From the NCBI GenBank assembly GCA_025774245.1, contig JALGWI010000009.1, positions 1 through 61,033 on the forward strand: a stretch of 61,033 nt of DNA, in the 5' to 3' direction. Within the stretch, counting starts at the first letter, position 1. Each line of letters starts with the position of its first letter. This document shows positions 1 to 43,005 of the stretch, one piece after another. A program made the translations under genes and the position numbers. Below the pieces are notes generated by a model, which ran no database searches, had not been told where the DNA came from, and saw only the letters and a list, made by a program, of their open reading frames with translations. This DNA comes from a bacterium. Lineage in GTDB: Bacteria > Joyebacterota > Joyebacteria > Joyebacterales > Joyebacteraceae.

Positions 1-2470
1 GGACTGTGATGAGCGGTTCGTCCGGATCGTTGCTCGCGATCTCGATGTCGCAGTTGTAGATGCCCGTCCCGAGACCGGCGCTGTTGGCGCAGACGCGGAT
101 CGTCTTCGACTGTCCCGGGCGCGCCATGCCCGCCCCGGGCGTCGCCACGAGCCACGGGCACGTCTCCGTGACCGTCCAGTCGAGGTTCGCGAATCCGAGA
201 TTCTCGATCTCGAGTTCGTCGCAGGCCGTCCCGGTCCCTACGATGTGGAACGACAGGCTCGTCGGCGTCACGTCGATGTCGGGGATGGGCGGCAGGATGT
301 GGAGCGTGACCAGGATGATGATCGTCGCCCGTTCCGGCTCGTTCGTCTCGAGGACGAGTTCACACTCGTACGTGCCCGGCGCGAGCCCAGCGGTGTTCAC
401 GCAGACCTCGACCGTGGAGGACTCGCCGGGTGGGGTCGTGCCTTCGTCCGGTATCGCGGCGAGCCAGTCGCACTCGTCGCTGATCGTCCACGCGAGCTCG
501 CCCGAGCCCGTGTTCGTGATCTCGAGCGGCGCGCAGCCGGTGCCGCCGGCACCGACCTCGAAGACGAACGCAGCGGGCTCGACCCCTGCCTGCGGGGCAG
601 TCAGAATCTCGCACTGCACGTCAACGACGGTCGGGGGATCGTCAGGATCGTTGGAATCGTAGGTGAGCTCCCAGGCATACACTCCGGGCTCGTAACCCCA
701 GGACGCCCAGACCCCGATGTCGACAATCTCTGACTCGCCCGCAGGAATCGTGCCGCCCGACGGGTCGGCCGTGAGTCCGAAGACCGTGTCGGTCACCGTC
801 CACACCAGAGGGGCGGTGCCGACGTTCAAGACCGTCTGGGGCTGGGATTGCGATGTCCCGTGATAGAGCGAGAACGTGAGCTCGGGCGGGTAAACCTCGA
901 TGTCGGGCGTGGGAAGGACCGTCAGGTCGACCGTCACCGTCACCGGCGGCGTGTGGGGATCGTTGCTCGCGATCGTGATGATGCAGTCGTAGTCGCCCGG
1001 CGCGAGTCCGGTGGCGTCGGCGCACACCTCGACAAGGTCGGCGTCCCCGCCCGGGACCGTGCCGGCGTCAGGATCGAGCGTGAGCCACGCGCAGGCCTCC
1101 CCGGCCGTCCAGGTGAGCATGCCCGTGCCGGTGTTCCCGATCGAGAGCTCCTGGCACTCGACCTCGCCCTGCCAGAGAACGAAGCCGAGCTCCGTCGGGT
1201 CGACGTCGATCTCGGGCGTCGGCAGGACGTTGAGCGTGACGTCGATCACGATCACGGGCGTGTCGGGATCGTTGCTCGTGAGGTCCAGGTTGACCGTGTG
1301 GACGCCCGGGGGCAGCCCGTCGGACTCTACGCAGATGTCGACGTCGGTGCTCCCGGACGACGGGATCGAGCCGGAACCGGGCAAATAGGTCAGCCAGGTC
1401 GCCCCGCCGTCGATGTCCCAATCGAGGGTGGCGATGCCGCTGTTCGAAATCGTGAGGACGTCGCACTCGTCGAAGCCCACCTGCAGATCGAACGTGAACG
1501 ACGTCGGGTCGGCGCTGATGTCCGGAACCTGCACGACGTCCAGGTACAAGGTGACCATGAGCGTTGGCTCATCAGGGTCATTGCTCGTGCAGTGGATCAC
1601 GCAGTAGTGTCCACCCGACGAGAGACCGGTCGCGTCGACACAGACCTCGATGGGGTTCGAGCCGGCAGGCTCCGTCGTCCCGCTCACGGGATTCAGGGTG
1701 ACCCACGGGCGCGTCTCGGTGAGATTCCAGTTGAGGGTGGCGTCCCCTACGTTGCTGATCGTGAACGTCTGGCAGTCCATCCCGCCGGGCGGGAGCGTGA
1801 ACTCGAGGTTCATCGGGTCGATCTCGATGTCCGGCTCGGGAATGGCGGGCTCGCACTGGTGGTCCATGTGTAGCTGAAAGATCGCGAAGTCGGCGGCGGC
1901 TACCATCTCATCCCCGTCGAAGTCGCTCCGGCATGCGTAGGGGCCTCCGCCGATGTCACCCTGGAAGATGAGGAAGTCGCCGAGGTCGACGAGGCAGTCT
2001 CCGTCGAGGTCGACCGAGCGCCATCCCCGCAGGTCGAAGTCGGGCCAGATCCCCGTCCATGGGATGGTCACGCCCATGCACGTCACCGTGGTCGTCACGT
2101 GGCAGCAGTAGAGGTGGGGGGACGTGTCGAGTCCGCCTGCGGGGTGGAAAACGGCCTCGCCCCCAGGGTTGGTCGTCGTCGTGAAAGGCGGGCAGAAGCA
2201 GGCGTCGCAGTCGGCGACGTAGCTGATCGTGACGGTCTCTCCGACGATGGGCATGTTCGCGGCGTCCCGGACCGTCACGACGACCGCCGACGGGGCGTCG
2301 CCCGCGGGGCACACGAGGACCATCTCGTCGTACGCGAGCCCCTCCCACTCACAGGAGGAGTTGGCAGGATCGGGGATCGGCCTTCCCTGGGCCGCGACCG
2401 GGGCAGTCGTCGCGACCAGGCTCAGGAGCGCGAGTCCGACCGGTAGCACGATGGTCACCCTCGTCTTCAT
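1..2470 (-). CDS. Large secreted ASH/BACON-repeat protein, C-terminus beyond window
   Basis: The frame is open from ATG at 2470 to the window edge, giving about 823 codons without a stop. The N-terminus is MKTRVTIVLPVG followed by a hydrophobic stretch ending near VAAQ, a type I signal peptide. Next come an Ig-like domain with CPAGD, a dockerin-like pair (DLDGDCLVD and SDFDGDEMV), and six roughly 100-residue Ig-fold repeats. Each repeat opens like PDIEIDPMNLEF and closes with SNDPDEP, resembling ASH/choice-of-anchor or BACON domains; the sixth is cut by the edge. A Shine-Dalgarno GAAAGGA lies upstream of the start. It is a paralog of the complete gene at 2831-5506, so the missing end probably carries a second dockerin and a sorting domain. 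The likely role is a cell-surface or extracellular structural or binding protein. The ligand is unknown. Confidence 0.85.
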   Translation of the reverse strand, partial: MKTRVTIVLPVGLALLSLVATTAPVAAQGRPIPDPANSSCEWEGLAYDEMVLVCPAGDAPSAVVVTVRDAANMPIVGETVTISYVADCDACFCPPFTTTTNPGGEAVFHPAGGLDTSPHLYCCHVTTTVTCMGVTIPWTGIWPDFDLRGWRSVDLDGDCLVDLGDFLIFQGDIGGGPYACRSDFDGDEMVAAADFAIFQLHMDHQCEPAIPEPDIEIDPMNLEFTLPPGGMDCQTFTISNVGDATLNWNLTETRPWVTLNPVSGTTEPAGSNPIEVCVDATGLSSGGHYCVIHCTSNDPDEPTLMVTLYLDVVQVPDISADPTSFTFDLQVGFDECDVLTISNSGIATLDWDIDGGATWLTYLPGSGSIPSSGSTDVDICVESDGLPPGVHTVNLDLTSNDPDTPVIVIDVTLNVLPTPEIDVDPTELGFVLWQGEVECQELSIGNTGTGMLTWTAGEACAWLTLDPDAGTVPGGDADLVEVCADATGLAPGDYDCIITIASNDPHTPPVTVTVDLTVLPTPDIEVYPPELTFSLYHGTSQSQPQTVLNVGTAPLVWTVTDTVFGLTADPSGGTIPAGESEIVDIGVWASWGYEPGVYAWELTYDSNDPDDPPTVVDVQCEILTAPQAGVEPAAFVFEVGAGGTGCAPLEITNTGSGELAWTISDECDWLAAIPDEGTTPPGESSTVEVCVNTAGLAPGTYECELVLETNEPERATIIILVTLHILPPIPDIDVTPTSLSFHIVGTGTACDELEIENLGFANLDWTVTETCPWLVATPGAGMARPGQSKTIRVCANSAGLGTGIYNCDIEIASNDPDEPLITV

Positions 2471-2644
2471 GGTTGCACCGTTCCTTTCGGATCCGCCGTC
2501 GGGCGGAGAAAGAGACAGGGGCCAGCCGCAACGAGGCGTGGCCCCCAAGTCGTGTTTCGGGTTCCGGATTCCCAGACAGTCGCCAACACCTTACACCCCA
2601 CTGGGCGAGAAGAGTGGTGCGGACACAGATCCCATTGAATACGA
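2471..2644 (-). promoter_or_regulatory. Conserved 5' leader of the repeat-protein gene, three hairpins
   Basis: This is the transcribed leader between the promoter and the ATG at 2470. Hairpin A (2518-2545) pairs GGGGCCA/TGGCCCC plus GCC/GGC with a one-base bulge and loop TCGTTGC. Hairpin B (2545-2560) is a short stem with a G-U pair. Hairpin C (2492-2507) is TCCGCC/GGCGGA, just ahead of the Shine-Dalgarno. The same three hairpins occur in the same order in the leader at 5507-5679, with base changes that keep or extend pairing. It does not match a riboswitch class I know, so a cis-regulatory or mRNA-stability role is inference. There is no gene on either strand in 2471-2830. Confidence 0.55.
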
Positions 2645-2650
2645 TACGTT

Positions 2651-2679
2651 ATTGTAGCGCATATCTGACTTTGAGTCAA
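2651..2679 (-). promoter_or_regulatory. Sigma70-type promoter
   Basis: On the minus strand TTGACT is separated by 17 nt from TACAAT, close to the consensus. A 30-bp block including it is identical to 5686-5715 in front of the paralogous gene. It drives the gene starting at 2470 through a leader of about 170 nt. Confidence 0.8.
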
Positions 2680-2744
2680 CCGGAACCTCGAAGCTCGGCG
2701 GAGCCTCTGCGCGGGGGACGGGCGAACCGGCCTCCATCCGCCAA

Positions 2745-2768
2745 GGGGCCGGACGTCCATCCGGCCCC
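2745..2768 (-). terminator. Hairpin terminator candidate after the 891-aa gene
   Basis: A perfect 9-bp stem (GGGGCCGGA/TCCGGCCCC) with a 6-nt loop lies about 60 nt past the stop of the gene ending at 2831. Only a weak T-run follows, so termination efficiency is uncertain. It separates the two tandem paralogs, each of which has its own promoter. Confidence 0.55.
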
Positions 2769-2830
2769 TCGTTGGTCGTCGGGGTGGTCGTGATCCCCCG
2801 ACTCAGGCATCGCGTGAGAGTGCTCCACCA

Positions 2831-5506
2831 TTACTTCAGAAGAACCATCTTCCTCGTTTCGGGTTCGCCGGCGATCTCGAGGCGGTAGAAGTAGACCCCG
2901 GACCCGACCTGCCGTCCGTGGTCGTCGGTGCCGTCCCACGTGACCTCGTAGCGGCTGGCGGGCATGCGCTCGTCGGCGAGCGTCCTGATCGGCCGGCCGG
3001 CGGCGTCGAACACGCGGAGAACGACGCTGCCTGGTTCGGTGACCGTGAACGCGATCTTGGTCACCGGATTGAACGGGTTCGGGTAGTTCTGCTCGAGCGC
3101 CGAGATCCTGGGATCGATCTCCTCCTCTTCGACGTCTGTGACCGTGGGCGCGCACGAGTGGTCCGTGTGGTAGCTGAAGAAGGTGAAGTCGATCGCGGTG
3201 ACGGTCCCGTCACAGTCGAGGTCGCTCCGGCAGGCGGTGCTCCCGAAGTCCTCCATGAAGATCGTGTTGTCCAGGACATCCACGGTGCAGTCGCCGTTCA
3301 GGTCGGGCGAGCGGAACTCGCGGGTGTCACTCGGCAGCCCCGTCCCGAGCCACGGAATCGGCTGCCCGCCGATGAACATCGTCGTCGTCAACATCGTGGC
3401 GGTCCCGAGGGCGTCGGTGACGACCGAGATCGGCTCGCAGATGCAGCCCTCGCACGTGCCCTCGAAGAACGGAACGACCTGGACGCCCGCGATCGGGGCG
3501 TCGTTGACGTCTCGCACACTGACCGTGATCGCGCTCCCGTCACCCCAGGGGCAGACGAAGACCTTGTCCGTGCACTCGAGATTGATCCAATCGACGTGCG
3601 AGTTGGCCATGTCGGCCATCTGGACTTGAAGCGTGACCAGTATGACGATCGTCGCCCGCTCGGGCTCGTTCGTCTCGATCTCGATTTCGCACTCGTACGG
3701 GCCCGGCGCGAGTCCCTCGGTGTCCACGCAGACGTCGACAACGGAGACCTCCCCGGGCGGGGTCAGGCCCTCGATTGGGTCCGTCCAGAGCCAGGAGTCG
3801 CACTCGATGGGGATCGTGATCGTCCACTCGAGGTCGGCTGAGCCCGTGTTGGAGATCTCGAGCAGCTGGCACTCGTCGCCGCCGGCGCCGACCTCGAACT
3901 CGAACTCCGTGGCGCTGACCTCCGGGCGAGGGGCGGGAGCGATGGCGAGGGTCACCGGGACGTTGAACACGGGGTCGACCGGGTCGTTCGACTCGTAGGC
4001 GATGTTCCACTCATGGAGGATGCCGGGCTCGAGATCCCACGACGCCGTGAGTGTCATCTGGGCCTCGGTCTCGCCATCAGGGGGTATCTCGTTCTCGCCA
4101 GCGGGTGCGACGGAGACGTACTCGATGGACGGGAAGGCCTCCCAAACAAGGGTGCCCGCGCCCTCGTTCGCGATCGTGTCGGGAAACGTCCACTCCGTGC
4201 CGTGGATGAGCGATATGAAGAACTCCGCCGGCGTGACCTCGATGTCCGGCGGCTCCTCGACGTTGAGATGCGCCGTCACCACGACGAGTGACTCGTCGGG
4301 ATCATCGCTCTCGACGTTGATGTCGCAGTAGTGATCGCCCGCGAGAAGGCCGGTCGCAGAGACGCAGACCTGCACGTCCTCCCAGTTGTCGGGAGGGGTC
4401 ACAACTTCCCCTGTGGGGTCAATCTCTGTCACCCAAGGACAAGCCGAGCTGGCCTCCCAGGTCAGATCGCCGTCTCCCGTGTTGCCGATCGTGAACGTGG
4501 CGCAGTCTGAACCGCCGTAAGGCACGGCGAGTTCGAGGTTCATCGGGTCGACCTCGATGTCGGGTTCGACATCCAGGACTTCGAGATGCACCGGGATCAG
4601 GAGCGGGTTGGCTTCGGAGGGGGCGCTGTGCAGGATTCGGATCTCGCCGTCGTATTCGCCGGGCAAGAGACCCTCCGACCTGACACACAGGTCGAACTCG
4701 TTCGAATCGCCGGGGAGAATCCGACCGAAGATCGGCTCCCCGAGACCCGTATGTGCGAAGCTAGGAATCTCCAGGATGAACCAGACGAGGCCGGCACCAC
4801 CCATAGTGGCCACGTTGCTGACTGTGACTGTGACGCAAGCCTCTTCACCTGGAGCGAGAGCGAATTCGAGGGACGTTGGATTGACCTCGATCCCCGGTGG
4901 GGGGAGGGGAGTGCACTGGTGGGCGCCCATGGCGTGCGGTATGATGAACGTCTGGTCAGTGCTCTCGATGGTGCCGTCCCCGTTGAAATCACTTCGGCAG
5001 GCTTCAGTGTAGAAATCCCCTCCAAGGAGGGTGTAGTCGGTCATGTCAACGACGAAGTCCCCGGTGAGGTCGAAGCAGCGCCATTCGCGCTGATCGAAGG
5101 TGAGGCCGGTCGCCGGCCAGTTAATGGGCTCACCGTTGTACTCCACGATCGTGGTGACCTCGCAGCAGCCGGCGTCGGAGGACCGATCGAATCCGCCGTG
5201 CGGGTAGATTTCGGCCTGACCAGTGGCATTGGTTATTGCTGTGGAGGGCGGGCAGAATCGCCCGACGCAGTTCGTGACGTAGTAGACCTCGACGGTCTCG
5301 CTGTCCATCCCGACGCCCGAGCCGTCGAGGAGCGTCACGGTGATGTACGCCGGGCCGTCGCCCGCAGGGCAGATGGTGGGTTTGTCGTCGAGTGCCAAGC
5401 CACCCCAGACGCAGGAGTAGGTCTGCGCGGCCGCCGTGGTCGTCGAGGCGACGAGGCAGAGAAGCGCGAGTCCGGCTGCCAGCACGATGGTCACGTTCGT
5501 CCTCAT
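2831..5506 (-). CDS. Secreted ASH/BACON-repeat protein with dockerins and C-terminal sorting domain
   Basis: The protein is 891 aa from ATG at 5506. This start gives signal peptide MRTNVTIVLAAG ending near AAAQ and a GAAAGGA ribosome site; a start 15 codons upstream has neither. Order: Ig-like domain (about 28-115), dockerin-like EF-hand pair (145-198), four Ig-fold ASH/BACON-like repeats (204-630), second Ig-like domain (640-730), second dockerin-like pair (734-785; DLNGDCTVD, SDLDCDGTV). The FlgD-like/type A sorting domain follows (806-891; YPNPFNP, GSGVYFYRL, final KMVLLK). Such C-termini direct export and surface anchoring in FCB bacteria (family knowledge). Many conserved Cys pairs suggest disulfides. 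It is a paralog of the partial gene downstream and shares its promoter and leader. The ligand is unknown; calcium binding by the dockerin loops is inferred. Confidence 0.88.
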   Translation of the reverse strand: MRTNVTIVLAAGLALLCLVASTTTAAAQTYSCVWGGLALDDKPTICPAGDGPAYITVTLLDGSGVGMDSETVEVYYVTNCVGRFCPPSTAITNATGQAEIYPHGGFDRSSDAGCCEVTTIVEYNGEPINWPATGLTFDQREWRCFDLTGDFVVDMTDYTLLGGDFYTEACRSDFNGDGTIESTDQTFIIPHAMGAHQCTPLPPPGIEVNPTSLEFALAPGEEACVTVTVSNVATMGGAGLVWFILEIPSFAHTGLGEPIFGRILPGDSNEFDLCVRSEGLLPGEYDGEIRILHSAPSEANPLLIPVHLEVLDVEPDIEVDPMNLELAVPYGGSDCATFTIGNTGDGDLTWEASSACPWVTEIDPTGEVVTPPDNWEDVQVCVSATGLLAGDHYCDINVESDDPDESLVVVTAHLNVEEPPDIEVTPAEFFISLIHGTEWTFPDTIANEGAGTLVWEAFPSIEYVSVAPAGENEIPPDGETEAQMTLTASWDLEPGILHEWNIAYESNDPVDPVFNVPVTLAIAPAPRPEVSATEFEFEVGAGGDECQLLEISNTGSADLEWTITIPIECDSWLWTDPIEGLTPPGEVSVVDVCVDTEGLAPGPYECEIEIETNEPERATIVILVTLQVQMADMANSHVDWINLECTDKVFVCPWGDGSAITVSVRDVNDAPIAGVQVVPFFEGTCEGCICEPISVVTDALGTATMLTTTMFIGGQPIPWLGTGLPSDTREFRSPDLNGDCTVDVLDNTIFMEDFGSTACRSDLDCDGTVTAIDFTFFSYHTDHSCAPTVTDVEEEEIDPRISALEQNYPNPFNPVTKIAFTVTEPGSVVLRVFDAAGRPIRTLADERMPASRYEVTWDGTDDHGRQVGSGVYFYRLEIAGEPETRKMVLLK

Positions 5507-5679
5507 GGCTGTACCGTTCCTTTCAGCTCCGCATCCCGCGGAGCAAGACAAAGGGGACCAGCCGCAACGAGGCGTGGCCCCGAGTCGCGTCTCGGATTCA
5601 TGATTTCCAGACGGCCGTCAACACCTTAGGCCCCCGCGTCACACAAAGAGTGATGGCTATCAGCTTCCTCTAGATACGA
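5507..5679 (-). promoter_or_regulatory. Conserved 5' leader RNA, second copy
   Basis: Leader of the 891-aa gene. Hairpin A (5553-5581) has GGGG/CCCC, CCA/TGG and GCC/GGC stems around loop TCGTTGC, with single-base bulges. Hairpin B (5580-5595) is CCGAG/CTCGG. Hairpin C (5526-5544) is GCTCCGC/GCGGAGC, just upstream of GAAAGGA. Hairpin C pairs in both copies with different sequences, which argues for structural conservation rather than mere duplication. Confidence 0.55.
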
Positions 5680-5685
5680 TGAACT

Positions 5686-5714
5686 ATTGTAGCGCATATC
5701 TGACTTTGAGTCAA
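5686..5714 (-). promoter_or_regulatory. Sigma70-type promoter, second copy
   Basis: TTGACT-N17-TACAAT on the minus strand, within a 30-bp block identical to that at 2651-2680. It transcribes the 891-aa repeat protein. The rest of the interval up to 5937 shows no gene and no convincing plus-strand promoter for the ABC operon. Confidence 0.8.
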
Positions 5715-5937
5715 CGAGTGTCTCGGGAGCGCGAGGGCGGACGGCAGGGCGGGGACCGGGCGGACGCCCGTTCACCGTCGGCGCCTCCTTCCCGCGAGCG
5801 CGCTCGCGTTTCTGCCAAACCTGACACCACCGTCCGGAGTCCTACCTGTTGCGCGGCACGGTTCCACCGGCCGTCCGGCCGACGGGACGCCGCGCTCTTT
5901 CCGTACCACTCATGGGCAGAACACGCGGAGGACCGCC

Positions 5938-6901: not shown

Positions 6902-9900
6902 ATGTTCGGTCAGATCCTCGGCTTCGAGCTGGGATACCGCTTCCGTGGCTTTGCGGTCTACCTCTTCGCCGGCGTGATGTTCCTCATGGCCTTCTCGGCG
7001 ATCGCGACCGACTCCGTCCAGATGGGCGGGGCGATCGGGAACGCCGCGCGGAACTCCCCGTACGAGATCGTCCGTCTCATGTCGATGATGAGCGCGATCG
7101 GACTCATCGCCCTCACGGGCTTCGTGGCGTCGGCGGTGAACCGCGACCACGAGCTCATGACCGACGAGATGTTCTACACGACTCCGGCCTCGAGGGCCTC
7201 GTACCTCTTCGGCCGCTTCGGCGGCGCCCTCCTCACGGCCTTCTTCGCGGTCTGCGTTGCGGCCCCGGCGATCGCGATCGCGAGCACCATGCCCTGGCAA
7301 GACCCCGAGCGCATCCTGCCTTTCAGTGTCCTGCCCTACCTCTACGCGCTCGGGGTCTTTGTTCTTCCGAACCTGTTCCTTCTGGGCGCGATCCTCTTCG
7401 CCTTCGCCACGCTCACGAAGCGTGTCGTCTTCACCTACGTGGCGATGCTCGGGATCCTCATGGGCTGGGCGCTCACCCAGATGCACGTGGGGGACCTCGA
7501 GAGCAGGCTGGTTGCCTCGCTCGCGGATCCGTTCGGGATCACGACCTTCAACCTCGCGACCCGCTACTGGACCGTCGTCGAGAAGAACGCGCTCCTGCCG
7601 CCCCTGGACGGCCCGCTCATCATGAACCGCCTGATCTGGGTCGGCGTCGGCGTCGCAGCGCTCGTCTTCACGTGGGCGCGTTTCCGGATGGAGGTGGGGG
7701 AGAAGCGCTCGCGGCGCAGCGCGGCCGCCGTGGCCGCCGTCAGCGCCCCCGGGCGCGAGGTCGCCATCGAGACGGTGGCGATCCCGAAGGTGGCGCAGGA
7801 CTTCTCGAGGCGCGGCTACATCCGTCAGTGGCTCAACCAGACGCGCGTCGAGGTCGCGGGGGTCCTGAGGAGCGTCCCGTTCCTCGTGATCATGATCTTC
7901 GGCGTCTTCAACCTCGCGGGAAGCCTCGGGGCCGACATCGGCGGAAGGACGGGCCTGCCCGTGACGCGCGAGATGCTCTCGATGATCGGGGGGACGTTCG
8001 ACCTCTTTCTCTTCGTCGTCCTTCTGGTCTACGCGGGACTCCTCGTCTGGCGCGAGAGGGCGGCCAGGATGAACGAGATCCAGGACACGCTCCCGATGCC
8101 CGACTGGATCCCCCTGACGGCGAAGCTCACAGGGCTCGTCGTGATCGCGCTCGTCGCGCTCGGTGTCGCGATGACGACGACGATCGTCTACCAGCTCGCG
8201 AGGGGCTACACGTTCCTCGAGATCCCACTCTACCTCCGCGGGCTCTTCGTGCTGTCGCTCGCCGAGTGGCTCCTCATCGCCGCGCTCGCGATCTCGGTCC
8301 AGACGCTCACGAACAACAAGATCGCAGGCTTCGTGATCATGATCGGCTACTTCATCCTGCTCGAGGTCCTGCCGTCGATCGATTTCACGAACAACCTCGC
8401 GATCTATGCGACGACGCCGCCGGCGCCATACTCCGACATGAACGGCTACGGCCACTTCGTGAAACCGCTCGTCTGGTACCACGTCTACTGGGGATTCCTG
8501 GCGGCGGGCCTCGTCCTCGTGTCGAGCCTCTTCTGGATCCGTGGGACCGACACCCCCGTGAGACTCAGGCTCAGGGAGGCCGCGCGGCGCGCGACGCCGG
8601 CGCGCATCGCCGCGATCACGGCGATGCTGGTCGGGTTCGTGGGGACCGGCGCGTGGATCTACTACAACACGCACGTTCTGAACGAGTACACGACGGGGCG
8701 GAGCGAGAACGACCGCGCGGCGCTCTACGAGCAGCGGTACAAGCAGTACCAGGGAATCCCGCAGCCGCGCGTGACCGACGTCAGGCTCGACGTCGATCTC
8801 TACCCCGAGGAACGCCGGGTCGAGATCAAGGGGGATCTGACGCTCGTCAACAAGACCGACGGACCGATCTCGGAACTCCACGTCGTGAACGAGCGAACGC
8901 TCGAGCTGGCGAGCTTCAGCCTGCCGGAGGAGAGCATCACGCTCGACGATCGCGAGATCGGCTACCGGATCTACGCGCTCGACGGGCCGCTCGCGCCGGG
9001 AGACACGCTCGAGGTCAGCTTTGAGGCGCGCATCGTGAACGAGGGATTCGTCGACGGCCGTTCGAACACGCGCGTCGTCGAGAACGGGACCTTCCTCGAT
9101 AACTCGCATTGCGTCCCGGTCTTCGGATACATGGACGACCAGGAGCTTTCGAACACGCACGAGCGCAGGAAGCGCGGGCTCCCGGAGCACGAGGACATGG
9201 CGCCTCCCGACGACATCATCGCGCGCGGAAACACGTTCTCCGTCGACGCCGACTGGATCAGCTACGAGGCGACGATCTCGACGAGTCCCGACCAGATCGC
9301 CATAACGACGGGCGATCTCGAGGACGAGTGGGTCGCGGACGGACGGCGCTACTTCCACTACGAGATGGATGCCCCGATGCTCCACTTCTTCCCGATCGTC
9401 TCGGGGAGGTACGAGGTCGCCCGGGACGCGTGGAACGACATCGGGATCGAGATCTACTACCACCCGACGCACACGTACAACGTCGACCGCATGATCGAGT
9501 CGGTGAAACAGTCGCTTTCGTACTACACGACGAACTTCACTCCCTACCAGCACCGTCAGATCCGGATCGTCGAGTTCCCGCGCTACAGCGGCTTCGCGCA
9601 GTCGTTCGCGACGACGATCCCGTACTCGGAGAGCGTGCACTTCATCGACGACCTCCGGAGCCAGGAGGACCTCGACATGCTGTTCTACATCACGGCGCAC
9701 GAGGTGGCGCACCAGTGGTGGGGACATCAGGTAGTGGTCGCCTGGGTGCAGGGCGCCACGTTCATCGAGGAGGCCATGGCGCAGTACTCAGCCCTCATGG
9801 TCATGGAGAGGGACGTCGGGCCCACGCAGATGAAGAAGTTCCTGGCGTACGAGCTCGATCGCTACCTCTCCGGCCGCGCGCAGGAGCGAAAAGAGGAGAG

Positions 9901-10480
9901 GCCGCTCCTCACGGTCGAGAACCAGGGGTACATCCACTACCGGAAGGGGAGCCTCGCGATGTATGCGCTCCGCGACTACATCGGCGAGGAGCGACTGAAC
10001 GCCGCGCTTCGGGAGTACATCGATCGGGTCGCCTTCCAGGAGCCGCCGTACACGAACTCGATCGAGTTCGTCGAGGCGCTCCGCGGCGCGATGCCCGAGA
10101 GCCTCGAGTACCTCATCGAGGACCTCTTCGAGACGATCACGCTCTACGACAACCGGACCTCGGAGGCGTCGGTCGAGGAGACCGACGACGGGAGGTACCG
10201 CGTCACGCTGGCCGTCCAGTCGGCGAAGGTGCGGGCCGACGGGCGCGGCGTCGAGACCGAGGTCCCGCACCACGACTGGATCGAGATCGGGGTCTTCGGC
10301 GAGAGGAGGGACGGCGAGCCAATCGGGAAGCCGCTCTATCTCGAGAAGCACCGGCTCGCGAGCGGCGAGAGCGAGATCGTACTCGTCGTCGACGAGCGCC
10401 CGGTCCGCGCGGGAATCGACCCGAGGAACCTCCTCATCGACCGCGTGCCTTCGGACAACGTCAGGCGCGTGAGCAGCTAG
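6902..10480 (+). CDS. ABC-2 permease fused to M1-family metallopeptidase (copy 1)
   Basis: 1192 aa. The N-terminal half is an ABC-2 type permease with two sets of transmembrane helices (starting MFGQILGFELGYRFRG; further helices to about residue 590). The C-terminal half resembles an M1 aminopeptidase: a beta-sandwich region beginning near VTDVRLDVDLYPEERR, then HEVAHQWW (His933, Glu934, His937) with Glu956 nineteen residues after the second His, the HEXXH-X18-E zinc site. The canonical exopeptidase GxMEN motif is replaced by FAQSFATTIPYSE (898-910). After the last helix the peptidase probably faces the outside, which is inference from topology. The fusion family is known from genome annotation. 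The substrate is unknown, and export or processing of peptides is a guess. Confidence 0.92.
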   Translation: MFGQILGFELGYRFRGFAVYLFAGVMFLMAFSAIATDSVQMGGAIGNAARNSPYEIVRLMSMMSAIGLIALTGFVASAVNRDHELMTDEMFYTTPASRASYLFGRFGGALLTAFFAVCVAAPAIAIASTMPWQDPERILPFSVLPYLYALGVFVLPNLFLLGAILFAFATLTKRVVFTYVAMLGILMGWALTQMHVGDLESRLVASLADPFGITTFNLATRYWTVVEKNALLPPLDGPLIMNRLIWVGVGVAALVFTWARFRMEVGEKRSRRSAAAVAAVSAPGREVAIETVAIPKVAQDFSRRGYIRQWLNQTRVEVAGVLRSVPFLVIMIFGVFNLAGSLGADIGGRTGLPVTREMLSMIGGTFDLFLFVVLLVYAGLLVWRERAARMNEIQDTLPMPDWIPLTAKLTGLVVIALVALGVAMTTTIVYQLARGYTFLEIPLYLRGLFVLSLAEWLLIAALAISVQTLTNNKIAGFVIMIGYFILLEVLPSIDFTNNLAIYATTPPAPYSDMNGYGHFVKPLVWYHVYWGFLAAGLVLVSSLFWIRGTDTPVRLRLREAARRATPARIAAITAMLVGFVGTGAWIYYNTHVLNEYTTGRSENDRAALYEQRYKQYQGIPQPRVTDVRLDVDLYPEERRVEIKGDLTLVNKTDGPISELHVVNERTLELASFSLPEESITLDDREIGYRIYALDGPLAPGDTLEVSFEARIVNEGFVDGRSNTRVVENGTFLDNSHCVPVFGYMDDQELSNTHERRKRGLPEHEDMAPPDDIIARGNTFSVDADWISYEATISTSPDQIAITTGDLEDEWVADGRRYFHYEMDAPMLHFFPIVSGRYEVARDAWNDIGIEIYYHPTHTYNVDRMIESVKQSLSYYTTNFTPYQHRQIRIVEFPRYSGFAQSFATTIPYSESVHFIDDLRSQEDLDMLFYITAHEVAHQWWGHQVVVAWVQGATFIEEAMAQYSALMVMERDVGPTQMKKFLAYELDRYLSGRAQERKEERPLLTVENQGYIHYRKGSLAMYALRDYIGEERLNAALREYIDRVAFQEPPYTNSIEFVEALRGAMPESLEYLIEDLFETITLYDNRTSEASVEETDDGRYRVTLAVQSAKVRADGRGVETEVPHHDWIEIGVFGERRDGEPIGKPLYLEKHRLASGESEIVLVVDERPVRAGIDPRNLLIDRVPSDNVRRVSS

Positions 10481-10574
10481 CTCGCGGCGGCGGCGGCGGA
10501 CGCGGAGCCCCGCCGTCGGCCGCCCGGCTGCGGACCGGCCGCCGGCCGCCCGGCCACACCCCGCGAGGTTCCAG

Positions 10575-13500
10575 ATGTTCCGCGACGTCCTCAGATTCGA
10601 GCTCCACTATCTCTTCCGACGCCCCGCCGTCTACGTCGGGCTCGTGCTCTTCTTCCTGTTCGGGTTCATGGCGATCGCGTCGGACACGTTCCAGTCGGGA
10701 CGCTTCCTCACGGCGACCGCCAGGAACTCCCCGTACGACATCGTCCGACTCCTGGCATCGATCTCGGTCGCCGGGCTCGTCCTGATCGCTGGATTCGTGG
10801 CGACGGCTGTGAATCGCGATCGCGAGCTCGGCGTCCACGAACTCTTCTTCGCCACGCCGGTCTCGAAGTCGGCCTACCTCGGCGGTCGCTTCGCCGGTTC
10901 GCTCATCGCGACGTTCCTGGCCGTGAGCGCGGCGGCCGCGGCGATGGCGCTCGCGAGCGCGATGCCGTTCCTCGACCAGGAGCGCCTCGTCGCGTTCGAC
11001 GCCGTGCCGTACGTCTACGCGCTCGGCGTCTTCGTGCTTCCGAACCTGCTCCTCGCCGGCGCGATCCTCTTCTCGGTCGCGACGCTGACCCGTCGCGTCC
11101 TCTTCGCGTACGTCGCCCTCGTCGCCATGATCGCGCTCTGGATCATCGCGCGCCGGTTCATGGGCGACATCGACAGCCGGTGGCTCGGGTCGATCATCGA
11201 CCCGTTCGGGATCATGTCCTTCCGCTACGCGACGCGGTACTGGACCGTCGCCGAGAGGAACACGGCCCTCGTGCCGCTCTCGGGGTCGTTCATCCTGAAC
11301 CGCGTGCTCTGGACGTCGGTGGGCGTCGGGTTCCTCGTGTTCACGTGGACGCGGTTCCGAATGACGGTCGTCGAGACCGTCTCGCGCCTCGGGCGCAGGG
11401 GAGGGGCGGCGGGCGACGATCCGGGTGAAGCCGGGCGGGCCCAGCCCGTTCCGATGACGACACCGATCTTCACGGCGCGCACCTGGTTCCTTCAGTGGGC
11501 GAAGCAGACGCGGATCGAGATCGGCGGTGTACTGACGAGCGTTCCGTTCATGGTGATGCTTCTCCTTGCGAACGTCATGCTTGTGACGGGCGCGCTCTCC
11601 GAGGTGGCCGGCACCCGGAGCTACCCCTTGACGAGGATCATGGTGAGCGAGATCACCGGCACCTTCGAGCTCTTCCTCGTCCTCGTGCTCCTCATCTACG
11701 CGGGACAGCTCGTGTGGAGGGAGCGGGCGGCGGGGATGCACGAGATCCACTCCGTGCTGCCGGTGCCCGACTGGGTGCCGGTGGCGGCGAAGCTCTCGGC
11801 GCTCGCCGCCGTCTCGGTCGTCATGCTCGCGGTCGCCGCGCTCGCGACGATCGCGATCCAGCTCGCCGGAGGGCACGTCGATCTCGAGCCCGGCGTTTAC
11901 CTCCGAGGGCTCTTCGTCGTCGGGAACGCGCACTGGCTCTTGATCGCCGCCCTCGCGATCGCCGTCCAGGCGTTCACGCCGAAGAAGATCGTGGGGTTCT
12001 TCGTCGTCCTCGCCGTGCTCGAGACGCTCGAGTGGTTCCCGGAGATCGGGCTCGGCCACCATCTTAACCTCTACAGCTCGACCCCGGAGGTGGTCTATTC
12101 CGACATGAACGGCTTCGGCCACTTCGTTCGGCCGATAGCCTGGTTCAGCGTCTACTGGGGGTTCCTCGCGGCGGCGCTCCTCGTCGTGGCCACGCTCTTC
12201 TGGGTGCGGACGACCGACCCCGCGCCGAGGGGCCGCTGGAGGGAGGCCCGGAGGCGGTTGACGAGAGCGCGGATGGCCGCGCTCGCCGTCGCGCTCGTCG
12301 GGTTCGTCGCCACCGGCGCGTGGATCTTCTACAACACGAACGTGCTGAACCCGTACCTGCCGGAGAAGGAGATCTCGCGGCTCCAGGCAGCCACGGAGGA
12401 GCGGTACAAACAGTACGAGGGTCTGCCGCAGCCCCACGTGACCGACATCGCGCTCTACGTCGACATCTATCCGGAGGAGCGTCGGGTCGAGGTGCGGGGC
12501 GACCTCCGTCTCGTGAACAAGACCGACGCGCCGATCGAGGAGCTCCACGTCCACACCGAACCCGTCCTCGAGTGGGACTTCCCGAGCCTCGCGGGGGAGA
12601 CGGTCGTGCTCGACGACACGGAGGTGGGCTTCCGGATCTACCGGCTCGCCGAGCCGCTTCTGCCGGGGGAGGCGCTCAACGTCGCCTACACGATGAGCGA
12701 CGTCAACGACGGGTTCGTCAACCACGACTCGAACACGAAGGTCGTCGAGAACGGGACGTTCTTCTCGAACTTCCACTGCGTCCCGCACTTCGGCTATGCG
12801 GTCGACACGGAGATCGAGGACCCCACCGTGCGGAGGAGGCACGGCCTTCCGCCCCGCGACAGGATGGCGGCCGTCGACGATCCCGTCGCGCGCATGAGCG
12901 CGTTCGACGTCGACTCAGACTGGATCACGTACGAGGCCACGATCTCGACAAGCGAGGATCAGATCGCCGTGACCGCGGGCTACCTCGAGCGCGAGTGGAG
13001 CGAGGACGGACGGCGCCACTTCCGGTACCGGATGGACAGGCCGATCCAGAAGTTCTTTCCGATCGTCTCCGGCCGGTACGAGGTCGCGCGGGACAGCTGG
13101 AACGACGTCGCGATCGAGATCTTCCACCATCCGCGGCACGCCTACAACGTCGGGCGGATGATCGAGTCGGTCCAGAAGTCGTTGGATTACTTCACGGCCA
13201 ACTTCAGCCCGTACCAGCACCGTCAGGTACGCATCCTCGAGTTCCCGCGGTACCGCACGTTCGCGCAGTCGTTCCCGACCACGATCCCGTACTCCGAGGA
13301 CGCGCACTTCGTCGGCGACGTCCGCGACCCGGAGAACCTCGACATGGTCTTCTACATCACGGCGCACGAGGTCGCGCACCAGTGGTGGGCGCACCAGGTC
13401 GTCGCGGCGCGCGTGCAGGGGAGCACGTTCATCGAGGAGAGCCTCGCGCAGTACTCGGCGCTCATGGTGATGGAGAAGGAGTTCGGACGGGACTACATGA

Positions 13501-14147
13501 AGCGGTTCCTCGAGCACGAGCTCGACCGGTACCTCCTCGGACGCGGAGGGGAGAGGCACGAGGAGATGCCGCTCGTGCTCGTCGAGGACCAGGGCTACAT
13601 CCACTACCGGAAGGGGAGCCTCGCCATGTACGCGCTCCGCGACTACATCGGCGAGGAAGCGGTGAACGCTGCGCTCCGCGCGTACATCGACGAGGTCGCC
13701 TTCCAGGAACCGCCCTACACGAACTCGCTCGAGCTCCTCTCGCACCTCCGGGAGGCGACGCCGGAGCGGTACCGGTATCTGATCGAAGACCTCTTCGAGA
13801 CGATCACCCTCTACGACAACCGCGTCGAGGAGGCGACGGTCGAGGAGACCGGCGACGGCAGGTACCGCGTGCGGCTCGCGATCGACTCCCGGAAGCTCCG
13901 GGCCGACGGGAAGGGCGTCGAGACCGAGATCCCGCACGCGGACTGGATCGAAGTGGGGGTCTACGGGGAGGAGACGGACGATGCGGTCGACGAGCGCCCG
14001 CTCTACCTCGAGAAGCACCGCCTCGCGAGCGGCAACTCCGAGATCGAGATCGTGGTCGACGAGAAACCAGCCCGCGCGGGGATCGACCCGAGGCATCTCC
14101 TCATCGATCGGGAGCCTGGGGACAACGTGAAGCCGGTCTCGGGATAG
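10575..14147 (+). CDS. ABC-2 permease fused to M1-family metallopeptidase (copy 2)
   Basis: 1190 aa, a co-linear paralog of the preceding gene with the same two-part architecture. The start MFRDVLRFELHYLFRR is followed by multiple transmembrane helices. The peptidase half carries HEVAHQWWAHQ (His931, Glu932, His935) and Glu954. The GxMEN position reads FAQSFPTTIPYSE. Both zinc sites look intact, so neither copy appears degenerate. With one ATPase upstream, the simplest model is a heterodimeric transporter in which each membrane subunit carries an extracytoplasmic peptidase. The 94-bp gap from copy 1 is GC-rich and has no promoter I can see. No terminator is visible after the stop. Confidence 0.92.
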   Translation: MFRDVLRFELHYLFRRPAVYVGLVLFFLFGFMAIASDTFQSGRFLTATARNSPYDIVRLLASISVAGLVLIAGFVATAVNRDRELGVHELFFATPVSKSAYLGGRFAGSLIATFLAVSAAAAAMALASAMPFLDQERLVAFDAVPYVYALGVFVLPNLLLAGAILFSVATLTRRVLFAYVALVAMIALWIIARRFMGDIDSRWLGSIIDPFGIMSFRYATRYWTVAERNTALVPLSGSFILNRVLWTSVGVGFLVFTWTRFRMTVVETVSRLGRRGGAAGDDPGEAGRAQPVPMTTPIFTARTWFLQWAKQTRIEIGGVLTSVPFMVMLLLANVMLVTGALSEVAGTRSYPLTRIMVSEITGTFELFLVLVLLIYAGQLVWRERAAGMHEIHSVLPVPDWVPVAAKLSALAAVSVVMLAVAALATIAIQLAGGHVDLEPGVYLRGLFVVGNAHWLLIAALAIAVQAFTPKKIVGFFVVLAVLETLEWFPEIGLGHHLNLYSSTPEVVYSDMNGFGHFVRPIAWFSVYWGFLAAALLVVATLFWVRTTDPAPRGRWREARRRLTRARMAALAVALVGFVATGAWIFYNTNVLNPYLPEKEISRLQAATEERYKQYEGLPQPHVTDIALYVDIYPEERRVEVRGDLRLVNKTDAPIEELHVHTEPVLEWDFPSLAGETVVLDDTEVGFRIYRLAEPLLPGEALNVAYTMSDVNDGFVNHDSNTKVVENGTFFSNFHCVPHFGYAVDTEIEDPTVRRRHGLPPRDRMAAVDDPVARMSAFDVDSDWITYEATISTSEDQIAVTAGYLEREWSEDGRRHFRYRMDRPIQKFFPIVSGRYEVARDSWNDVAIEIFHHPRHAYNVGRMIESVQKSLDYFTANFSPYQHRQVRILEFPRYRTFAQSFPTTIPYSEDAHFVGDVRDPENLDMVFYITAHEVAHQWWAHQVVAARVQGSTFIEESLAQYSALMVMEKEFGRDYMKRFLEHELDRYLLGRGGERHEEMPLVLVEDQGYIHYRKGSLAMYALRDYIGEEAVNAALRAYIDEVAFQEPPYTNSLELLSHLREATPERYRYLIEDLFETITLYDNRVEEATVEETGDGRYRVRLAIDSRKLRADGKGVETEIPHADWIEVGVYGEETDDAVDERPLYLEKHRLASGNSEIEIVVDEKPARAGIDPRHLLIDREPGDNVKPVSG

Positions 14148-14475
14148 GCCGCACGCCCACGTGCCCCCGCCTCATCTACAAACCCGCACCCACAGAGCGC
14201 TTGACTGACACCCAACAACTATGGTATCCTCTGACGCGCTTTACCTCGGCGCGCGTGGTTCTCCATGCGGGCGTGATGCCCGCAGGCCGGCGCGATCCGT
14301 CACGGTGCCCATCCTGACACGACGCCGCGAACCGACCATGCTCCACCCACCGGCCAACGCACTGAACGAGAAGAGGCAGAAGAGAAACGCGGAGACGTGC
14401 CGTCGTCGCACCGGCGCCGTTCCGCGCGTGGCGATCCCGGGCGCCCGCCCGGGGCAGAACGCGAGGAGGAAGCTC
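14148..14475 (+). promoter_or_regulatory. Intergenic region with promoter and long leader
   Basis: TTGACT at 14201 and TATCCT at 14225 are separated by 18 nt, a plausible sigma70 promoter. The roughly 240-nt leader that follows contains a perfect hairpin TGCGGGC/GCCCGCA (14266-14284, 5-nt loop). AGGAGG (about 14464-14469) lies ahead of the ATG at 14476. No coding signal is seen in the interval, although a frame is open from 14221. Confidence 0.6.
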
Positions 14476-16356
14476 ATGCGGTTCGCAGTGCTCATGCTGG
14501 CAGCGGCACTCGTGGCAGCGTGCTCGGTTCCGGCCGACGCAGACGTGCCGAAGACCATGTCGTACCAGGGCGTGCTGACGGACGCCGACGGCGTGCCCGT
14601 CGAGGACGGCGGCTACGGCGTCGAGTTCCGGATCTACGACGTCGAGACGGGCGGGACCGCTCTCTGGAGCGAGTCGCAGCTCGTGATCGTTACCGACGGG
14701 ATCTTCAACGTGACACTCGGCACTGTGGAACCGCTCGGGATCGCCTTCGACGTGCCCTACTGGCTCGGCACCTCGATCGAGGGAGACCCCGAGCTCGTGC
14801 CCCTGACCGAGCTGACGTCGGCGCCGTACGCGCTCCGGGCGGCGGTCGCCGAGAGCCTGAGCGGAGGCGCCGTTAACGACCACGATTGGGAGTTCGACGG
14901 GGACGACATCTACCGGCTGACCGGGCGCGTCGGCATCGGCACGTCTGACCCGGCGGCCCCGCTCGTCATCAAGAGGGATCACGACAGCAACACGAACGTG
15001 ATGATCGTGAACGCCCACACGGGGCAGTGGTCCGGGGCGCTCCTCATGCTTGACGACGAGGAGTCCGGCAAGGGCGTCATCGGGTTCTACGACAGCGAGC
15101 ACCCGTTCCACCCCGACGCGCTCGTGATCGGGAACGAGCGCGGATTCCCGGGAGGGCCGATCAAGCTCAGGACCCGGAGCAGCGACCGGGTGTACGTGAG
15201 CGCCGAGGGGAACGTGGGCATCGGGACCGTGACGCCTGCCGAGCGGCTCGACGTCGCTGGCACGACGCGAACGACGGGGTTCATCCTGCCGACTGGCGCG
15301 GTGGATGGCCATGTCCTCGTGTCCGACAGCGCCGGCGAGGGAACCTGGCAGCCGGCGCCGGGCGGGATCGGCGGGGGCGGCACCAACAACTACATCCCCA
15401 GGTTCACGGGTTCATTGACCATCGGGAACTCCGTCATCCGCCAGAACAATGACGGAGACGTGATCGTCGGCGGCGAGCTCCACGTCGACACCTCGACGAC
15501 GCGCGCCGGGGAGTTCACGTCGAATCACGGGAGCTCACTGACCAGCGTTCTGCACGCCGAGTTCACCGGTTCCGGCTCGTACGACGTGGCCGCCGTCCGC
15601 GGGCACTCCGTCTCACAGGACGGATACGGACGGGGTGGGTCGTTCCTGGGCGGGTACGACGGCGTCCAGGGCCTCGCCACACCGACGGGGACCCTCGAGT
15701 ACCACGGCGTCTCCGGCGGCGCCATCGGCGGGAACGGGGACAACATGGGCGTCTACGGGTTGGCGATCCAGGGTGACCACAACTACGCCATCTACGGCGA
15801 CGGGGGCCTCTCCGGCAGCGAGTGGGCGGGCTACTTCGCCGGCGACGTCCACATCACCGGGACGCTCACGGGCGGGAAGGCCGGCTCGAGAATCGACCAC
15901 CCTCTCGACCCGGCGAACAGCTACCTGAACCACGCGTACGTCGAGAGCCCCGAGATGAAGAACGTGTACGACGGCGTGGCCATTCTCGACGAGAGCGGTG
16001 AAGCGCGGGTGGTGCTCGCGGAGTGGTTCGAGGCCGTGAACAGCGTCTTCCGCTACCAGCTCACCGCGATCGGTGCTCCAGGCCCGAACCTCTACATCGC
16101 CGAGAAGATCTCCGGGAACGCCTTCACGATCGCCGGCGGCGAGCCGGGGATGGAGGTCTCGTGGCAGGTGACCGGCATCAGGAGCGATCCGTTCTCCGAG
16201 GCCGGCAGGATCGTGGTCGAAGAGGAGAAGCCCGCGGACGAGGTCGGGAAGTACATGCATCCGGAGGCGTACGGTCTGCCGCGGGAGATGGGGGTGAGCT
16301 ACCGCGAGCCCCCGAGGATGCTCTCGTCGTGGGCCGATCAGCTGAGCACGGAGTAG
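14476..16356 (+). CDS. SYQG-family secreted surface protein (paralog 1)
   Basis: 626 aa from ATG 14476, chosen for its AGGAGG site and signal peptide MRFAVLMLAAALVAACS. VAAC could be a lipobox; otherwise cleavage falls near ADA. After this comes a conserved N-terminal domain (MSYQGVLTDADG, FRIYD, PYALRAA), then a variable middle with short repeats of tail-fibre style (VGIGTSDPAAP, VGIGTVTPAERLDVAG). The conserved C-terminal domain has YAGYFAGDVHITGTL, IDHPLDP, VESPEMKNVYDG, YQLTAIGAPGPNLYIAE and VSWQVTGIR. This end-domain pairing recurs in three other genes here. It is probably an extracellular fibre or adhesin-like protein. No enzyme motif is seen and the function is unknown. Confidence 0.8.
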   Translation: MRFAVLMLAAALVAACSVPADADVPKTMSYQGVLTDADGVPVEDGGYGVEFRIYDVETGGTALWSESQLVIVTDGIFNVTLGTVEPLGIAFDVPYWLGTSIEGDPELVPLTELTSAPYALRAAVAESLSGGAVNDHDWEFDGDDIYRLTGRVGIGTSDPAAPLVIKRDHDSNTNVMIVNAHTGQWSGALLMLDDEESGKGVIGFYDSEHPFHPDALVIGNERGFPGGPIKLRTRSSDRVYVSAEGNVGIGTVTPAERLDVAGTTRTTGFILPTGAVDGHVLVSDSAGEGTWQPAPGGIGGGGTNNYIPRFTGSLTIGNSVIRQNNDGDVIVGGELHVDTSTTRAGEFTSNHGSSLTSVLHAEFTGSGSYDVAAVRGHSVSQDGYGRGGSFLGGYDGVQGLATPTGTLEYHGVSGGAIGGNGDNMGVYGLAIQGDHNYAIYGDGGLSGSEWAGYFAGDVHITGTLTGGKAGSRIDHPLDPANSYLNHAYVESPEMKNVYDGVAILDESGEARVVLAEWFEAVNSVFRYQLTAIGAPGPNLYIAEKISGNAFTIAGGEPGMEVSWQVTGIRSDPFSEAGRIVVEEEKPADEVGKYMHPEAYGLPREMGVSYREPPRMLSSWADQLSTE

Positions 16357-42189: not shown

Positions 42190-42480
42190 GGTAGGAGGAA
42201 GTGGCGGAGCTTGTCTCTTGACATACGCAATAAAGCTATGCACTCACCCAGTATCATGAGCGCTCACTCATGATGCTCCTGCGCATCCCACTATAGCATT
42301 GACGCAGATTCGATTCTGTGGTACCGTCTAGCCAGCCTGAGTTAGCTGCACAACCTTTCTTCACGTGATGGTAGAAAAGAGCGAAGTAGCGCTAGGCGCC
42401 GCGTGCGCACGGCCGGGGTGCGGTGCGGCGTCGTTGCTTTCTTGGGAGAGCTTACCAGGGGTGAGCGAAAGGAGGGCTCG
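42190..42480 (+). promoter_or_regulatory. Intergenic regulatory region with dyad and promoter candidates
   Basis: This stretch is noticeably more AT-rich than its surroundings. It holds TTGACA at 42218 without a good -10 box, an 8-bp inverted repeat ATCATGAG/CTCATGAT with a 6-nt spacer (42253-42274), TATAGC at 42292, and TTGACG-N17-TACCGT (42299-42327). The dyad sits where the -35 box of TATAGC would be, which suits an activator site. The leader ends with AAAGGAGG before ATG 42481. No gene is seen. Confidence 0.55.
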
Positions 42481-43005
42481 ATGCGACAGCGGTCTGTGGT
42501 GCTGCTCGCCGTTGCAGTTGTTCTGCTCATGGCCTTCTCCGCGGCAGCGCAGTTCCAGATGCCTTACAGCGTCGTGGGCTGCGGTGGGGGGAGCATGTCG
42601 GGCGTGAACAACATCATCCACGGCACGGTCGGACAGGCGTGCATCGGGGTGGTGAGCGGCCCATCGAACATCAACCAGATCGGGTTCTGGTACCGTCCTG
42701 GCTGGATCCTCACGGGTGTCGAAGGTGAGGACGTGCTTCCGACGGAGTACTGGCTTGGCCAGAACCACCCGAACCCGTTCAATCCCGTGACGACGTTGAG
42801 CTTCGCGATCCTCGAGCGGACGCGAGTGGAGATGAAGGTGTACGACGTCGCGGGGCGAGAGGTGATGACTCTCGTGGACGAAGTGCTCGACCCGGGGTTT
42901 CACCGGGCCGTGCTCGACGCGAAGGGCCTTCCGAGCGGTGTGTACTTCGCTCGGATGGTGGCAGGTCAGTTCGTAGAAGCCCGCAAGATGGTGCTCCTGA
43001 AGTAG
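42481..43005 (+). CDS. Small secreted protein with FlgD-like/type A C-terminal sorting domain
   Basis: 174 aa from ATG 42481 (AAAGGAGG 5 nt upstream). The signal peptide ends near FSAAAQ. The mature N-terminal part carries the short pattern GCGGG, SGVNNIIHGTVGQACIG, GFWYRPGW that recurs in small FCB-group sorted proteins. The C-terminal domain (about 95-174) has HPNPFNPVTTLSFAI, YDVAGREV, SGVYFARM and the final KMVLLK. It lies between two SYQG-family genes. Function unknown; it may be a small surface component. Confidence 0.82.
   Translation: MRQRSVVLLAVAVVLLMAFSAAAQFQMPYSVVGCGGGSMSGVNNIIHGTVGQACIGVVSGPSNINQIGFWYRPGWILTGVEGEDVLPTEYWLGQNHPNPFNPVTTLSFAILERTRVEMKVYDVAGREVMTLVDEVLDPGFHRAVLDAKGLPSGVYFARMVAGQFVEARKMVLLK

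Follow-up and report, generated by a model that had tools for sequence, protein, structure and literature searches.

A possible transcription attenuator in the leaders of two tandem genes for predicted type IX secretion cargo

Two neighbouring genes on the minus strand of one bacterial contig open with the same promoter block and a long leader, in which an earlier note had seen three hairpins in a fixed order and suggested a functional cis-acting RNA. The locus raises the question of whether these leaders carry a regulatory signal of their own or owe their likeness to gene duplication. Our analysis suggests that they are probably a small, lineage-specific control of expression, not a proven new riboswitch.

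Two paralogous genes and their promoters

The window, the whole 61,033-nt stretch that was analysed, is an entire contig of a 3.2-Mb, GC-rich genome (128 contigs). Gene 2 (2834..5506, minus strand, ATG at 5506) encodes 891 amino acids, with a signal peptide recognised by eye and, according to Pfam and NCBIfam, dockerin-like and BACON/HYDIN-type Ig-like repeats and a FlgD-Ig/T9SS type A sorting tail that scores 27.9 bits against TIGR04183 (cut-off 23). Gene 1 (1..2470, minus strand) begins at the ATG at 2470 and runs off the contig end; it carries a signal peptide (by eye) and BACON/HYDIN-type Ig repeats (Pfam), and its C-terminus lies beyond the contig, leaving the sorting-tail result to cover gene 2 alone. 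The two genes are paralogous, their N-termini sharing 47% amino-acid and 64% nucleotide identity, and they stand in tandem, each preceded by one copy of a sigma-70-type promoter. Since the genome encodes the T9SS translocon SprA (TIGR04189, 495.9 bits summed over the frame) and gene 2 has a sorting tail, gene 2 is predicted to be type IX secretion cargo, and gene 1 likewise by paralogy. Further along, at 6902-14147 on the plus strand, lie two tandem paralogues of about 1190 amino acids in which ABC-2-type membrane regions are fused to an M1 peptidase domain, adjoined by an ABC ATPase gene; in a genome of the same genus (G001), the family gene is also adjoined by a similar ATPase and a similar fused protein.

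The promoter of gene 1 (TTGACT-17-TACAAT; 2651..2680, minus strand), with the dyad TGACTcaaAGTCA over its -35 element, and that of gene 2 (5686..5715, minus strand) are indeed identical at 30 of 30 positions, as the earlier note had claimed, and the two blocks rank highest among promoter-like sites in the window's first 20 kb. In the 80 nt above the promoter, identity between the copies is 62%, below the 78% of the leaders. Upstream of promoter 1, past the stop of gene 2, a hairpin at 2740-2770 on the minus strand (GGGGCCGGA..TCCGGCCCC) shares the outer stem GGGGCC/GGCCCC with hairpin B of the leaders and is probably the terminator of gene 2.

The dyad, generalised as TTGAYTnnnRGYCA, occurs in six of eight distinct promoters of the gene family, compared with 2 of the 52 TTGACT..TANNNT sites elsewhere in the genome, and is missing from two family members. 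It also stands 5' of unrelated genes across the phylum, among them YicC-like, endonuclease V-like and exported-protein genes. Loci that carry it include L065, L066, L067, L069, L070, L071, L072, L073 and L077. Its presence before unrelated genes led us to reject the dyad promoter as a gene-specific operator; it is possibly a common promoter feature or an operator.

Hairpins of the two leaders

Leader 1 (W1; 2471..2650, minus strand, from the -10 box to the ATG of gene 1) and leader 2 (W2; 5507..5685, minus strand) each comprise about 173 transcribed nucleotides from the likely start to the ATGs, in agreement with the earlier estimate of about 170. They are 78% identical, promoter included, compared with 64% at the coding start and 58% at coding third positions; because the genes are paralogues, this likeness alone is weak evidence of function. 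The identity is also patchy: it reaches 30/30 in the promoter, 28/30 around hairpin B and 13/15 over the Shine-Dalgarno sequence, and is about half near the beginning of the leader body, where the first 60 nt of RNA 3' of the promoter are the least conserved between the copies. Folding energies of the whole leaders are unexceptional against dinucleotide shuffles (z of -1.3 and -1.0).

The hairpins fared unequally. Both leaders have hairpins B and C, in the same order, whereas A is at most a partly shared stem. In leader 1 (2552..2589, minus strand), RNAfold pairs an outer GUGUU/AACAC and an inner UCUGG/CCGGA; in leader 2 (5587..5624, minus strand), sequence and folds show that the outer pairing survives as GUGUU/rACrC, through A-to-G changes that give G-U pairs, whereas the inner stem is broken, so that only the outer part of the supposedly conserved core stands.

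Hairpin B is the best preserved of the three. It lies at 2518..2545 in leader 1 (GGGGCCACGCC...GCGGCTGGCCCC; -19.1 kcal/mol, T-rich tail at 2508-2517) and at 5553..5581 in leader 2 (-17.5 kcal/mol, tail at 5545-5552 with 6 T of 8), both on the minus strand, and copy 2 has the G-U pair in place of G-C that the earlier note described. Across four leaders of two subfamilies (W1, W2 and two from the same genus, G001 and G002b), all 40 of 40 cells of the pairing table are paired, with one two-sided change from A-U to C-G and two G-C/G-U exchanges; these pair counts were reached in 73 of 500 shuffles, which is not significant with four sequences. In each of the four leaders, the hairpin taken alone has -17.5 to -23.2 kcal/mol and 5-6 of the 8 bases that follow it are T, and its tail begins 30-31 nt from the Shine-Dalgarno sequence in W2, G001 and G002b. 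When folding of the nascent chain is modelled, hairpin B forms with a probability of 0.79-0.99 once the tail is made; in W2 the probability is 0.90 in the nascent form versus 0.00 in the full-length fold.

How terminator-like this element is was judged against the genome itself. Scanning 461 kb, with gene calls from a simple codon model, for stable hairpins followed directly by 8 bases of which at least 5 are T gave 79 sites: 18 within 120 nt after genes, 7 in leaders, 10 in other intergenic DNA and 44 within coding DNA (412 kb, both strands), a coding background that predicts 0.009 such hairpins per 170-nt leader. Both copies of hairpin B were recovered, that of leader 1 being counted under other intergenic DNA, probably because gene 1 is truncated and went uncalled. 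The sites after genes have tails similar to those of hairpin B, such as TTCTCGTTTC, and weak or sub-threshold matches of our covariance model in other genomes include terminator-like hairpins of the form GGGGCC..GGCCCC-TTTC. We therefore read hairpin B as terminator-like, resembling the genome's own putative intrinsic terminators at gene ends. Termination there may be weak, because the T-tract is interrupted by C.

Hairpin C stands before an invariant GAAAGGA, the Shine-Dalgarno sequence of gene 1 (2482..2488) and gene 2 (5518..5524). Its stem is TCCGCC-CGAC-GGCGGA in leader 1 (2492..2507), 3 nt before GAAAGGA, and GCTCCGC-GGGAT-GCGGAGC in leader 2 (5526..5544), 1 nt before it, all on the minus strand. 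Thus the hairpin does pair in both copies, but not with different sequence as had been thought: TCCGC/GCGGA is common to the two and only the extensions and the loop differ. Strong stems within 12 nt of the Shine-Dalgarno sequence occur in 44 of 268 genes (16%) where 18.7 (7%) are expected from shuffles, and hairpin C is therefore only weakly above background. Family leaders have such a stem in 6 of 9 cases, compared with 20 of 150 leadered genes as entered for the test; the family members are non-independent and the hairpin scores of several were assigned by hand, and with relatives collapsed the count becomes 3 of 6 (p ~0.06). In the uncollapsed test the control row was entered as 20 versus 130 instead of the correct 20 versus 110, which makes its p slightly too small. 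We rejected hairpin C as the key element on the grounds that stems before the Shine-Dalgarno sequence are just mildly enriched in family leaders. GAAAGGA-ATG was likewise dropped as a marker of the leader class: a stem precedes it in 8 of 30 cases, with 3.6 expected, and a terminator-like hairpin close by together with a promoter was found in this set for only one further gene, with its ATG at 42481.

That gene encodes a different protein with a T9SS sorting tail (174 aa), and its upstream region (42299-42483, plus strand) has the same layout as the window leaders: a promoter TTGACG-17-TACCGT, a GC hairpin with a T-rich tail and a stem GCTTACC-AGG-GGTGAGC abutting GAAAGGA. At 14201-14476 on the plus strand, a promoter-like TTGACT-18-TATCCT precedes a leader of some 245 nt, in which a strong stem (TCCCGGGCGCCCGCCCGGGG) lies about 10 nt before the Shine-Dalgarno sequence; the gene downstream encodes a 626-aa predicted exported protein similar at its N-terminus to an ORF of a different contig (L065).

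Relatives of the leaders

In a sample of 20 genomes of the phylum, clear members of the gene family were found in two genomes of the same genus (G001 and G002) and one of genus g7 (G008), and a public contig search with the N-terminal alignment gave mostly the same MAGs and one C-terminal-domain match in a distant Eisenbacteria MAG. W1, W2, G001 and G002b share a block made of the GGGGCC-hairpin (B), the T-rich tail, hairpin C and GAAAGGA. A covariance model of this block, searched against the 20 genomes, had five strong matches, all before members of the gene family, so that homologues of the kind the earlier note had called for do exist but are few: five leaders in three genomes of one genus. 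Four of the matches are the training leaders. The fifth, G002a (E = 1.6e-6), had been left out of the model and was found mainly through the sequence around the start; it keeps the promoter and the Shine-Dalgarno region, breaks hairpin B, with a weaker hairpin at the same place, and has for a neighbour the ABC transporter that also adjoins the window genes. Family leaders of G008 have a similar promoter and mostly a stem near the Shine-Dalgarno sequence, and hairpin B is absent from them. G001 is the sole leader with an exceptional whole-leader folding energy (z -2.9).

The retention of stems despite base changes, on which the earlier note had built its case, therefore applies to B and hardly to A. 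For C, it applies only across subfamilies, between which the stem is replaced whole and cannot be counted as base-pair covariation. Conservation of the structured leader at the genus level is partly supported by these alignments. Searching the leaders by nucleotide sequence in 60 related and unrelated genomes returned the two window copies and one 20-bp match in a distant genome. The window has no match at gathering score in Rfam (release 15), the earlier note having likewise matched it to no known riboswitch, and a permissive Rfam search of the four leaders gave nothing credible, all matches lying far below gathering score. A general leader of T9SS cargo was rejected, most other sorting-tail genes in the 461 kb and in the relatives' loci having no such layout.

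Explanations of the leader and known systems

The reading that we prefer, with a confidence a little short of even, is that the leader is a lineage-specific transcription attenuator of predicted T9SS cargo genes. It builds on what is directly observed, namely the promoter-like blocks, the paralogy of the genes, the fact that hairpin B and the layout are conserved within the genus, and the terminator-like form of B. Each gene would be transcribed from its own promoter copy, of sigma-70 type, and the first 170 nt or so of each mRNA would form a leader, with hairpin B and its U/C-rich tail lying some 30 nt upstream of the Shine-Dalgarno sequence and stem C abutting that sequence. Part of the RNA polymerases may halt at hairpin B while the remainder read through, a read-through that may be regulated, and hairpin C may moderate or protect the initiation of translation. 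As in a leader attenuator, a terminator-like hairpin with a U-rich tract lies between promoter and start codon; a mutually exclusive antiterminator conserved among the homologues was not found, the possible competitors of hairpin B differing between W1/W2 and G001/G002b. No ORF with a Shine-Dalgarno sequence is common to these four leaders, and a conserved leader peptide, of the kind that a ribosome-mediated attenuator would keep, was rejected.

A plainer account, a serious possibility to which we nevertheless give less than even credence, is an unregulated structured 5' UTR in which B and C add stability to the mRNA or keep the ribosome-binding region tidy, their conservation reflecting duplication and ordinary constraint on promoter, Shine-Dalgarno sequence and stability. 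It fits the paralogy of two genes for predicted secreted proteins, the position of B and C just before the Shine-Dalgarno sequence, the mild commonness of such stems in this genome and the other hairpins that G002a and several G008 leaders carry near that site. Yet it leaves unexplained why B is followed by a T-rich tail in each of the four leaders, and terminator-like sites are rare elsewhere in the leaders of the genome.

Unlikely, in our view, is the more elaborate proposal of a genus-specific cis-regulatory RNA in which conditional termination at B and the stem at the ribosome site would control T9SS cargo, possibly by sensing the status of export or of surface proteins. It is improbable that transcription from the promoter is meant to yield a small RNA of some 135 nt ending at B, with the downstream gene expressed by read-through: a promoter, some 100 nt and a terminator-like hairpin do follow one another, but the first 60 nt of the body are its least conserved part, the body is unrecognisable in G001 and G002b, and no Rfam sRNA matches at gathering score. 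Equally improbable is a new family of cis-regulatory RNA that binds a ligand or protein, as a riboswitch or autoregulated leader. The fixed order of B, C and Shine-Dalgarno sequence and the departure of the full-length fold of W2 from its nascent form would suit such an RNA; against it, no conserved multi-helix aptamer core was found, folding energies are unexceptional, the leaders occur in one genus only and Rfam is empty. Of the functional cis-RNA first suggested, what stands is a conserved structured leader with selection on B (pairs intact within the genus, one two-sided change); a riboswitch is unsupported, neither an Rfam match nor a ligand pocket having been found. Least probable of all is that conservation acts on the DNA, the TTGACTnnnAGTCA dyad over the -35 element being a transcription-factor operator and the leader a by-product. 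The frequency of the dyad in family promoters favours this reading; its presence upstream of unrelated genes (e.g. the YicC-like one) and its absence from two family members speak against it, and the conservation of hairpin B and the Shine-Dalgarno region is left unexplained.

If the attenuator reading is true, the leaders would give a first indication that cargo of type IX secretion is controlled at the level of RNA in a bacterial lineage that has received little study, and in which the relatives compared here are MAGs. To our knowledge, no such control has been reported, and our search of the literature on riboswitches in Eisenbacteria found no such report. The case also illustrates how a plausible 'riboswitch' call from two paralogous leaders turns into a terminator-like element once relatives from the genus and the terminators of the genome itself serve as controls.

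Compared with the families in Rfam, the window leaders are riboswitch-like in length and structure yet match none at gathering score. Genes for surface-layer proteins (slpA-type) have long, stable 5' leaders, and the likeness extends to a promoter and a long structured leader before a predicted surface-protein gene and to a stem near the Shine-Dalgarno sequence, whereas the window leaders have a terminator-like tail after B and the protein family is unrelated. Attenuators based on intrinsic terminators are well known in bacterial leaders, in the trp and his operons, the T-box and the pyrBI class. Like these, the window leaders place a terminator-like hairpin and a U-rich tail between the promoter and the first gene; unlike in them, no leader peptide, conserved antiterminator or Rfam T-box match was found, and the target is a gene for a secreted repeat protein.
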